DNA of 64,000 bases from positions 62,001-126,000 of the forward strand of contig JAPOVT010000054.1 of assembly GCA_026708015.1 (NCBI GenBank), in the 5' to 3' direction. The number at the start of each line of letters is the position of its first letter. Position 1 is the first letter of the stretch. Positions 43,554 through 46,401 of the stretch are shown one piece after another. Position numbers and translations under genes: made by a program. The notes beneath the pieces were generated by a model that was given only the letters and a program-made list of their open reading frames with translations, searched no databases and had not been told where the DNA came from. The DNA comes from a bacterium (GTDB taxonomy: Bacteria; Actinomycetota; Acidimicrobiia; Acidimicrobiales; Bin134).

Positions 43554-44459
43554 ATGGCATTGAGTTTTGACAACAGGGTTGCGATCGTCACGGGAGCCGG
43601 CGGCGGGCTGGGGCGACTGTACGCCCTGGAGCTGGCCCGGCGGGGGGCCCGGTTGGTGATCAACGACTTGGGCGGGGCCGCTGATGGCACCGGGGCCAGC
43701 GAGGGCCCGGCCCAGTTGGTGGCCAACGAGATCAATGACGGCGGCGGCGAGGCGATGGCCGACACCAACTCGGTGGCCACCTCCGAGGGCGGGGCCGCCA
43801 TTACTGCCACCGCGATGGAAGCGTTCGGGCGGGTGGACATTGTGATCAACAACGCCGGAATCCTGCGGGACAAGACCTTCCACAAGCTGGAGGACGATCA
43901 GCTCCACCCGGTACTGGCCGTCCATCTTCGGGGGGCGTTCAACGTCACCCGGCCGGCTTTCGTCCAGATGCGCGAGCAGGGCTATGGCCGCATCGTCTGC
44001 GCCACATCCAACGCAGGAGTGCTGGGCAACTTTGGCCAGTCCAACTACAGCGCGGCCAAGATGGGCCTTGTCGGGCTCACCAACACGCTGGCTCTGGAGG
44101 GGGCCAAGTACAACATCAAGGCCAACTGCATCGCGCCGGTGGCCACCACCCGCATGACCGAGGCCATACTCGGCGAGGAGGTCAAAGAGACCATGAATCC
44201 TGAGCTGGTCACTCCGGTGGTGTGCTTTCTGGCCCATGAGGACTGTCCGGTCTCGGGCGAGGTGTACTCCGCGGCCGGCGGCACGGTGGCCCGTTTCTTC
44301 ATCGGCCGGACCCCCGGCTACTACAACCCCGATCTCACCGTGGAGGACGTGGCTGAGAATTTCGATCAGATTCGCGACGAGTCCGGCTACAAGGTTCTGA
44401 ACGACGCCAACCACGAGGTGGGCGTGGCCTACAAGATGATCCGTGCTGCCCCGGAATGA
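43554..44459 (+). CDS. SDR oxidoreductase, MFE-2/17-beta-HSD4-like
   Basis: A 301-residue SDR from ATG 43554: TGAGGGLGRLYALELARRG near residue 13, NDLGGAADGTGAS (the insert typical of MFE-2 hydroxyacyl-CoA dehydrogenases), NNAGILRDKTF near residue 98, YSAAK and a long C-terminal tail (RDESGYKVLNDANHEVG). TAACCT seven bases upstream could be a leaderless -10. It likely oxidises 3-hydroxyacyl-CoA. The stop overlaps the next gene by four bases (ATGA). Confidence 0.88.
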   Translation: MALSFDNRVAIVTGAGGGLGRLYALELARRGARLVINDLGGAADGTGASEGPAQLVANEINDGGGEAMADTNSVATSEGGAAITATAMEAFGRVDIVINNAGILRDKTFHKLEDDQLHPVLAVHLRGAFNVTRPAFVQMREQGYGRIVCATSNAGVLGNFGQSNYSAAKMGLVGLTNTLALEGAKYNIKANCIAPVATTRMTEAILGEEVKETMNPELVTPVVCFLAHEDCPVSGEVYSAAGGTVARFFIGRTPGYYNPDLTVEDVAENFDQIRDESGYKVLNDANHEVGVAYKMIRAAPE

Positions 44460-45136
44460 CCGCTGACATGGCCGAACACCCCGATGACGCTTCTGACGCG
44501 GCCGACTTGCTAAAGGACCTCGACGACGAGGACATCCAGGACGTGGCGTTCTTCGGCGAAGCGCCCGGCTACGAGGCGCTAGACGAGGAGGGGTTCGAAG
44601 ACGAAACCCCCGAAGGCACGTCGGCGGCTGTGGAGGCATTCGACGAGGCCGCCGAGCAGCTTTTCAACCGTCTCCGGGGCCATCCGATGGCCGACCGGGT
44701 GTTCTACACCGCCTCAGAACTGGGCAACTTCAGCATCCTGTGGCACGCCCTGGCCTGGGCTGGTGCGACCTCCAAGCGGGGTCGGCGCCGAGCCCTGCGG
44801 GTGTCTGTAGCTTTGGCGGTGGAGTCAGCGCTGGTCAACGGACCGATAAAATCAGCCTTCAACCGCTCCCGGCCGCTGGCTGAGCGCGACCATCCGCACC
44901 GGCTGCGCCAGCCGCTCACCAGCAGCTTTCCGAGCGGCCATGCCAGCGCCGCGGTGGTAGCCGCCGCGCTCTTGGCCGAGTCCCGACGCCGCCGCTGGCC
45001 GTTCTGGGCGGCCGCCTCAGTGGTGGCGGCCAGCAGGGTCCATGTGCGCATCCACCACGCTTCCGACGTGGTGGTCGGCGCCCTGGTGGGCGCAGTGATC
45101 GCCCGGCTGTTCAAGAAGATCTGGCCGCTTCGCTAG
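44456..45136 (+). CDS. PAP2-family phosphatase
   Basis: A 226-residue protein with an acidic N-terminus of about 65 residues, then a PAP2 core: KSAFNRSRPLAE (motif 1), SSFPSGHASAAV (motif 2) and SRVHVRIHHASDVVVG (motif 3). Several membrane helices surround the motifs. It dephosphorylates lipid phosphates such as phosphatidic acid or undecaprenyl-PP. The start could also be ATG 44468. Its TAG stop lies exactly at the left end of the inverted-repeat element at 45134-45299, so the original C-terminus may have been changed. Confidence 0.86.
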   Translation: MTADMAEHPDDASDAADLLKDLDDEDIQDVAFFGEAPGYEALDEEGFEDETPEGTSAAVEAFDEAAEQLFNRLRGHPMADRVFYTASELGNFSILWHALAWAGATSKRGRRRALRVSVALAVESALVNGPIKSAFNRSRPLAERDHPHRLRQPLTSSFPSGHASAAVVAAALLAESRRRRWPFWAAASVVAASRVHVRIHHASDVVVGALVGAVIARLFKKIWPLR

Positions 45137-45299
45137 TGGTCCGTCTGCAAATTGGTCAGGGCGTCCTGCTAGCCATCGACGCCCCTCGCGGCGTTGCTCC
45201 TCCTTGCCGTACGCTCCGGGTATGGCTGCGTCGGTGCGCCTTGCGAGGAACGCCGATGCCGTCGCAATCCGCGCCAGCCAATTCACAGACGGACCACTA
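45134..45299. mobile_element. MITE-like element with terminal inverted repeats
   Basis: TAGTGGTCCGTCTG at 45134-45147 is matched exactly in reverse complement by 45286-45299. Extended inward, 20 of 22 bases pair. A second pair, 45174-45189 with 45243-45258 (13 of 16), lies at the same distance from each end, so the whole 166 bp forms a long imperfect hairpin. The ends begin and finish with TA, as for IS630/Tc1-type targets. No transposase is encoded. A transcription terminator is unlikely at this length. Confidence 0.6.
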
Positions 45300-45306
45300 A
45301 TGGACC

Positions 45307-46401
45307 ATGGCCGATCACAACACCGTCAGCGTCTACGAGGACCGGGCGGCCGAATGGCGGGCTGAGCGCCAGCCCAAGTCCACTTCAGCGGTCGAAGCTT
45401 TCGCCGCCCTAGATCGCCCTGACGGAATCACCGCCGATCTGGGCTGCGGCCCCGGCTGGCACACCGCCGCGCTGGCTGGCCCCGCCCTGCCCAGCCCCGC
45501 GCTGGCCATCGACGCGGCCCGGTCCATGCTGGAGATGGTTCCCGAACACGCCCCCGATGCCCTGCGCTGCCGGGCTGATCTGGCCGCGCTGCCCTTGGCC
45601 ACCGGGTCGCTGGCCGGGGCGTGGGCATCGCGCAGCTACGTACACCTCGACCGCCGCCATGTACCGCTGGCGCTGGCCGACCTGCACCGAGCTCTGGCTG
45701 TTGGCGCGCCGGTGGAACTTCACATCTTCGAGGGGGATGCCGATTTCGAGCCGTTCTCCGACGACGACTTCCCCGGCCGCCGCTTCTCCCAGTGGCCCGA
45801 AGAGTGGATTGCGCCCCTCATGGAGGGCGCCGGGTTCGAGCTCGACGCCCTGAAGCGGTTGGACCGGCCCCCCAAGGTTGCCACCCTCATCGTCAAAGGT
45901 CGCCGGGCCCGCACGCTGCCCGACACCGTGGGCCCAGAAATGCGGCTATTGATTTGCGGCCTGAACCCCAGCGTGTATGCGGCCAACGCCGGCGCGGGAT
46001 TCGCCCGACCGGGCAACCGGTTCTGGCCCGCGGTGCTGGCCGCCGGCTTGGTGAGTGCCGACCGCGACCCCCGGCGGGCGCTGATCGACCACGGGGTGGG
46101 CATGACCGATCTAGTCAAGCGGGCCACCCCCCGGGCCGATGAGCTCACCGCCGACGAGTACCGCCGGGGCCTCGACCGGCTGAAGTGGCTAGCGGAGTGG
46201 CTCAGTCCCTCGGCGGTGTGCTTCGTGGGGCTGGCCGGCTGGCGGGCCGCCGTGGACCGAAAGGCAAAGGCCGGGCCGCAACCTCAAGGGTTGGCCGGTC
46301 GACCGGTCTATGTCATGCCCTCCACCAGCGGGGCAGCCGCCGGCTATCAGATGGCCGACTACGTCAGCCACCTCCAGCGGGCCGCGGCGCTAGCGACCTG
46401 A
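45307..46401 (+). CDS. Fusion of a methyltransferase and a mismatch-specific uracil-DNA glycosylase
   Basis: A 364-residue protein with two domains. Residues 1-195 form a SAM methyltransferase (YEDRAAEWRAERQ, ADLGCGPGWHTAAL near residue 44, LALADLHRALAVGAPVEL). Residues about 210-364 form a MUG/TDG-type glycosylase with MRLLICGLNPSVYAANAG and ARPGNRFWPAVL at the active site and MPSTSGAAAG in place of the DNA-insertion loop. Mug excises U or T from mispairs. No frameshift is needed to join the domains. The start lies seven bases after the MITE-like element. Its 3' end overlaps the convergent LLM gene by 38 bases. Confidence 0.83.
   Translation: MADHNTVSVYEDRAAEWRAERQPKSTSAVEAFAALDRPDGITADLGCGPGWHTAALAGPALPSPALAIDAARSMLEMVPEHAPDALRCRADLAALPLATGSLAGAWASRSYVHLDRRHVPLALADLHRALAVGAPVELHIFEGDADFEPFSDDDFPGRRFSQWPEEWIAPLMEGAGFELDALKRLDRPPKVATLIVKGRRARTLPDTVGPEMRLLICGLNPSVYAANAGAGFARPGNRFWPAVLAAGLVSADRDPRRALIDHGVGMTDLVKRATPRADELTADEYRRGLDRLKWLAEWLSPSAVCFVGLAGWRAAVDRKAKAGPQPQGLAGRPVYVMPSTSGAAAGYQMADYVSHLQRAAALAT

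Follow-up and report, generated by a model that had tools for sequence, protein, structure and literature searches.

The locus raises the question of whether a single reading frame really joins a SAM-dependent methyltransferase (MTase) to a MUG-type uracil-DNA glycosylase and, if it does, whether the two halves serve one reaction. An earlier note on the window (the whole stretch of 64,000 nucleotides that was analysed) had reported such a frame, considered the combination unusual and proposed that both halves act on the same base lesion or make up a sequence-guided repair tool. The gene and its two domains are as follows.

45307..46401, + strand: whole fusion gene, 364 aa, from its frame, Pfam and searches of its own genome and of class genomes
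45307..45897, + strand: class I SAM-dependent MTase domain, residues 1-197, from Pfam Methyltransf_25/11 above cut-off and Foldseek matches to 3e23 and 3h2b
45901..46398, + strand: MUG/TDG-like uracil-DNA glycosylase (UDG) domain, residues 199-364, from Pfam, NCBIfam, a PDB sequence search and Foldseek

The gene is a single unbroken frame of 364 codons on the + strand, running from an ATG at 45307 to a stop at 46401, and has one match in its own draft genome (3.5 Mb). Its product matches Pfam Methyltransf_25 at residues 44-131 (34.7 bits, cut-off 27), Methyltransf_11 at residues 44-133 (28.4 bits, cut-off 21.2) and UDG at residues 206-348 (45.4 bits, cut-off 24.3), the last placing it in the UDG superfamily. 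The AlphaFold model of the whole protein has a pLDDT of 93.9 and a pTM of 0.92. Relatives carrying names, at 82-94% identity, are Acidimicrobiia MAGs including Candidatus Poriferisocius aerobius. Pfam, PDB sequence relatives and Foldseek agree with the earlier reading of one frame as a SAM MTase and a MUG-type glycosylase, and the two-domain protein, an N-terminal class I SAM MTase followed by a MUG/TDG-like UDG domain, is confirmed as real. A chance ORF is ruled out by the Pfam matches above cut-off together with purifying selection on both parts, dN/dS over 12 full-fusion pairs being 0.06-0.37 for the N-terminal part and 0.07-0.28 for the Mug part, as estimated by a simple counting method in GC-rich genomes from pairs which partly share sequences and are not all independent.

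An assembly error wrongly joining two genes is also ruled out, as the fusion was matched nearly full length and in one frame in 39 of the 296 sampled class genomes (counted from the match rows of the class sample), across 18 family groups. The fusion is genuine, and by the same count it is widespread in the class, which removes the claim that the combination is unusual. At E 0.001, 144 of the 296 class genomes gave a match of some kind, those to generic MTases being counted as well. A phylum sample gave matches at E 1e-20 in 117/396 genomes, 15 inside the class and 102 outside it; among the matches listed for these 102 (with no more than five candidates scored per genome) either the Mug or the MTase part was covered, never both, and in one of them (G577) the match passes the MTase boundary by about 25 positions, across a stop codon. 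In the plasmid and phage collections, 100 plasmid and seven phage records matched and no place covered 80% of the query, while one scan of viral contigs returned 33 stretches fitting the pattern and no confirmed relative; a mobile or phage origin is disfavoured by these searches, neither of which gave a near-full relative. On the sequences compared, the fusion is old and, within the samples searched, confined to the class, since full-length matches are spread within the class and none was found outside it. Two of the four genomes sampled from its own genus are without any match, and the gene is therefore not essential. No description of the fusion, or of two features presented below, the change from Asn to Asp and the repeated loss of one half of the MTase, was found in the open-access literature searched.

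The glycosylase domain carries the following motifs, the first two of which had been named in the earlier note and are now placed.

45958..45972, + strand: motif 1 GLNPS, residues 218-222, with the catalytic-type Asn N220, from alignment to E. coli Mug N18 and TDG N140
46003..46032, + strand: ARPGNRFWPA, residues 233-242, with N237 aligned to TDG N157, from the alignment to PDB relatives and fused-clade rows
46108..46110, + strand: motif 3 base-recognition codon, Asp268, aligned to TDG N191 and E. coli Mug K68
46318..46341, + strand: motif 2 or wedge loop PSTSGAAA, residues 338-345, with A343 at a position that is Leu in most of the clade

Among PDB sequences, the C-terminal part comes closest to E. 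coli Mug (E 2.7e-17), aligned over residues 2-134 of 154, and next to human TDG, and the top Foldseek matches of the glycosylase half of the model are TDG and 1mug, giving it the MUG/TDG fold. A GxNP motif 1 with a catalytic-type Asn, as in UDG family 2, is present, and both N220 and N237 are kept in 60/60 fused-clade rows. The NCBIfam Mug models match at E 8.5e-22 and 2.1e-17, both under cut-off (PRK10201 / TIGR00584; 77.6 bits against 144 and 63.8 bits against 402.6); as the Mug equivalog cut-offs are missed, the fusion is not named a G/U-specific Mug. In motif 3, a gap-free alignment sets D268 against TDG N191 and E. coli Mug K68 (numbers counted from the alignment), so that the window protein has an Asp at the position which is Asn or Lys in a TDG/Mug pocket. 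This first motif-3 residue is Asn in 34/34 stand-alone Mugs and Asp in 60/64 fused-clade rows. Further rows gave Asp in 18/18 fused-clade sequences with a readable motif 3, of which L031 and L044 are already among the 64, and L046 and L047 lie on contigs of the same length as those of L003 and L085. Among three plasmid-borne Mugs of other bacteria, two have Asn and the motif search found no motif in the third (L167). A second difference is at the position of TDG H151 (counted from the printed alignment), with His in 34/34 stand-alone Mugs versus Gly in 55/64 fused-clade rows. As a side observation, the wedge loop at 46318-46341 reads SGAAA in the window protein and its two nearest rows (L031 and L044) and SGLNA in most of the clade; the position of Mug's intercalating Leu is Ala in these three.

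In the MTase domain, two segments are conserved.

45436..45456, + strand: SAM-binding motif I DLGCGPG, residues 44-50, with D44, G46, G48 and G50 invariant
45775..45795, + strand: GRRFSQW, residues 157-163, between strand 5 and the next helix, from conservation in 29 rows

The Methyltransf_25/11 profile and the DxGxGxG motif are both present, as in class I SAM MTases, and D44, G46, G48, G50 and the downstream D69 are invariant in 29/29 aligned full fusions. Because these SAM-binding residues are invariant, the MTase is probably active. R158 and F160 are invariant and W163 nearly so in the same 29 fusions; the GRRFSQW segment, which is absent from the stub forms described below (stub alignment, read by eye), is perhaps a substrate lid. 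No DNA-methylase family is among the fusion's four Pfam matches up to E 1, a negative limited by the HMMER filters, which discard most matches above E ~0.1, and the MTase substrate is judged more likely not to be DNA. The genomes were also searched for the cytosine-5 DNA methylase family PF00145, which had no match in 39 of the 54 carrier genomes tested. It is present in 11/34 full-fusion versus 4/20 stub genomes, and with no clear association a tie to cytosine-5 DNA methylation was rejected.

The SAM-binding half of the MTase is missing in 20 of the 60 fused-clade members checked, mostly with a short stub left in its place. At these 20 loci the frame is closed upstream, and no N-terminal MTase half was found in the 1.5 kb before the Mug domain in the three forward frames, where a search with pieces of at least 25 aa gave only weak, chance-level pieces; a frameshifted MTase upstream of the stubs is thereby excluded. 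Most stubs keep two MTase pieces, at about model positions 106-134 and 157-183, which correspond to the helix-strand following the SAM half and to the GAGF helix with its strand, and are without the SAM half itself (1-105) and the GRxFxxW segment. For L091, L098, L100 and L102-L104 the profile scores of the stub pieces are weak and their assignment comes from the alignment. One stub (L099) has no visible MTase remnant and was left out of the stub alignments and model, which rest on 19 of the 20; stub start codons were chosen by hand. Both forms occur within each of the family groups f35, f36, f43 and f9 and within the genus g72 (G056 full, G015 stub). A further locus, G127:C1:2434095-2434582 (L117), has its glycosylase domain divided between two overlapping frames, which reflects either a frameshift or an error in sequencing.

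Of the 41 loci examined, 17 (13 full, four stub) have a transaldolase/transketolase pair that converges with the gene. Another 18 loci, also of both forms, have luciferase-like ORFs at most about 7 kb away; such ORFs follow the gene directly in the window, in L062 and L067, and in the stub loci L088 and L091. As full and stub forms share the same locus types, loss of the MTase in situ is the simplest reading. The neighbours in the window are PAP2, SDR and luciferase-like genes and, judged by eye, a PHA-synthase-like ORF, and those of the second locus type are transaldolase, transketolase and others. No repair gene is among the identified neighbours in either locus type, several conserved neighbour ORFs having no Pfam match, and a repair operon is accordingly disfavoured. 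Two features lie immediately before the fusion gene in the window.

44456-45136: PAP2 phosphatase gene, directly upstream of the fusion gene
45134-45299: 166-bp element whose two ends, 22 bp each, are inverted and 91% complementary, between the PAP2 and fusion genes

In six close relatives PAP2 seems to stop within a few bases of the fusion gene's start or to run into it, so that the two genes there probably form an operon. The 166-bp element ends seven bases before the fusion ATG. Four other long stretches of the genome match it at 90-96% identity, two of them over nearly its full length, which makes it MITE-like. L031 and other relatives are without it, and there the PAP2 and fusion genes nearly abut. 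The genome also has two more UDG-superfamily genes, G000:C3:55382-55798 (L162) and G000:C48:191735-192235 (L163), apparently of UDG families 4 and 5 by their motifs, so that ordinary uracil repair need not depend on the fusion protein.

The order of events was read from trees of the glycosylase domain. The comparison covered 98 domains, of which 40 come with a full MTase, 24 lack one and 34 are the stand-alone Mugs that were fetched. In it the 64 fused-clade rows split from the 34 stand-alone Mugs with a support of 100/100 and the full and stub states change 14 times, at least nine of these on well-supported branches. L084, L085, L090 and L106, which lie at contig ends or are genes split over contigs, were removed before the final tree and the count of 20 in 60. 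L030, L047, L052-L056, L115, L117, L118, L120 and L121 were left out of both trees as duplicates or partial, L119 was removed for a Mug match that was too weak, and only L031 and L044 of the close relatives L002 and L031-L046 entered the trees. The final tree of 66 rows has 11 full/stub changes on the best tree, with some branches poorly supported, and forcing the 20 stubs into one clade was rejected (p-AU 4.9e-5). When rooted with six stand-alone rows, four fusions with Asn268 (including L004), all with a full MTase, are sister to the other 56 (97/79, 90/81), and the Asp is present in 56/56 rows of the latter subclade, stubs included. The four Asn-bearing fusions mean that the fusion does not require the Asp. 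With moderate support for the split, the tree suggests that the fusion came first and was followed by a single Asn to Asp change and then by repeated loss of the MTase, the Asp always being kept.

The reading preferred here, given a probability of about 0.5, is of a clade-specific glycosylase of the MUG/TDG branch with a preference shifted by Asp268, and of an MTase fused once in the ancestor which is active as a dispensable accessory. The protein would be a chromosomal repair-type DNA glycosylase of the UDG superfamily, of a clade found in Acidimicrobiia, to which a SAM-dependent MTase was presumably joined N-terminally once. To judge from the Mug/TDG family, the glycosylase would flip a base out of the DNA, and Asn220 would hold in place the water that hydrolyses the glycosidic bond, as in Mug and as reported for the attacking water and N140 of TDG (PMC9800633, PMC5387724). 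Asp268 would move the preference to a 4-amino base, i.e. a damaged or modified cytosine, and away from uracil and thymine, and the MTase would have its own, probably non-DNA, substrate and be no obligatory partner in the glycosylase reaction.

The part of this reading in which the single post-fusion change has retuned the enzyme into a natural cytosine-type glycosylase for modified or damaged cytosine is tentative and rather doubtful. In some UDGs the first motif-3 residue, which is K68 in Mug, is described as contacting uracil through paired hydrogen bonds (PMC10776899), and hUNG N204D and EcUNG N123D are reported to excise cytosine (PMC11289083). From the numbering in PMC5387724, from papers on motif 3 and from the alignments, we infer that UNG N123/N204 is the same position as TDG N191, a residue reported as critical for excising carboxylcytosine (caC) and 8-oxoadenine (oxoA) (PMC9800633). 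Removal of normal cytosine would be toxic, and a cytosine glycosylase would therefore need extra discrimination.

Of the competing explanations the one that survives best, and a distinctly possible one, is an ordinary MUG-type G:U or G:T (or etheno-C) glycosylase in which Asp268 is tolerated and the MTase is an unrelated passenger fused by chance. It accounts for the overall MUG/TDG sequence and fold and for the catalytic-type Asn and N237 of all 60 rows, and E. coli Mug itself has a Lys in place of Asp268 (PMC10776899). In addition, TDG N191A is reported to lose only 6-fold in G:U and 10-fold in G:T activity, with formylcytosine (fC) excision unaffected (PMC9800633), and these mild effects, together with the activity of the Lys-bearing Mug on G:U, mean that the motif-3 residue is not all-determining. 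Such an enzyme sits less well with an Asp kept throughout the 56-row subclade, even after loss of the MTase, with the replacement of the stand-alone His by Gly at the TDG H151 position and with a score of 77.6 out of the 144 bits of the Mug equivalog cut-off.

A coupled enzyme, whose two halves would work on a shared base or on consecutive intermediates of a single lesion, in line with the earlier note, is unlikely. There was one fusion with a constant domain order across 18 family groups, the predicted arrangement of the two domains is rigid (pTM 0.92) and distances in the MTase go together with those in the Mug part (Mantel r 0.61, 0/2000 permutations as high), a correlation for which common descent alone suffices. 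The same-lesion proposal is weakened by the repeated loss of the SAM half while the glycosylase motifs are kept, and by the lack of a DNA-methylase Pfam match in the fusion and of PF00145 in 39 of the 54 carrier genomes. Nor does any Mug column clearly separate the 40 full from the 20 stub forms, the smallest per-column Fisher p, uncorrected over all columns, being 0.003; as the Mug domain shows no clear change in lineages that lose the MTase, the two activities can probably be separated. The analyses described here gave no sign of the sequence-guided repair that the earlier note had also suggested. Least probable is that the MTase domain serves mainly as a structural platform whose kept C-terminal part (helix-strand-helix-strand-strand) stabilises or steers the glycosylase, for although nearly the same pieces are kept in most stubs and that of the one stub modelled, L107, is predicted to be well ordered except for the first residues (stub model pLDDT 93.4, pTM 0.90), the stub part is under far weaker constraint than the Mug part (dN/dS 0.54-0.64 versus 0.16-0.32, four pairs by the same counting method), L099 has no visible remnant and a SAM motif invariant in 29/29 full forms would be needless for a platform.

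The fusion itself is a class-wide feature; its interest lies in the replacement of Asn by Asp and in the repeated disappearance of half of the MTase. If the switch of the preferred reading is true, a bacterial clade has naturally evolved a glycosylase with the pocket change that glycosylase-based base editors use, and these bacteria would have a still undiscovered lesion or modification of cytosine that needs a glycosylase to itself. The recurrent deletion, each time similar, of half of a Rossmann MTase also provides a natural series for studying what the fusion adds, with the stubs as ready controls.

Among known systems, E. coli Mug and human TDG (UDG family 2) share with the fusion the fold (1mug TM 0.87 and 5t2w TM 0.76, by target length), a GxNP motif with a catalytic-type Asn, an NRFW/NHFW segment and a PSG/PSSS loop. 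They differ in motif 3 (Asp in the fusion, Asn in TDG, Lys in Mug), in motif 1 (GLNPS in the fusion, GINPG in the others), in the Gly that the fusion has for TDG H151 and in the N-terminal MTase. The 34 fetched stand-alone actinobacterial Mugs are the nearest family relatives found and have the same glycosylase domain; unlike the fusion they have no MTase match in front, form a separate clade and carry Asn in motif 3 and His at the TDG H151 position. The small class I MTases cg3271 (3h2b) and RPA2492 (3e23) resemble the N-terminal half in fold and SAM motif but are single-domain chains of about 200 residues. In the Ada-AlkA pair, the A domain of Ada takes an alkyl group onto its own cysteine with no SAM, and AlkA has another glycosylase fold. 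The mycobacterial Ada-AlkA is like the fusion in that a methyl-transfer repair domain is described as joined to a DNA glycosylase (PMC7432924). Human UNG N204D, an engineered cytosine-DNA glycosylase, has the same Asn to Asp change at what would be the equivalent first motif-3 residue (PMC11289083); it is a man-made family 1 enzyme, whereas the Asp of the fusion is natural and sits in a MUG/TDG-type pocket.
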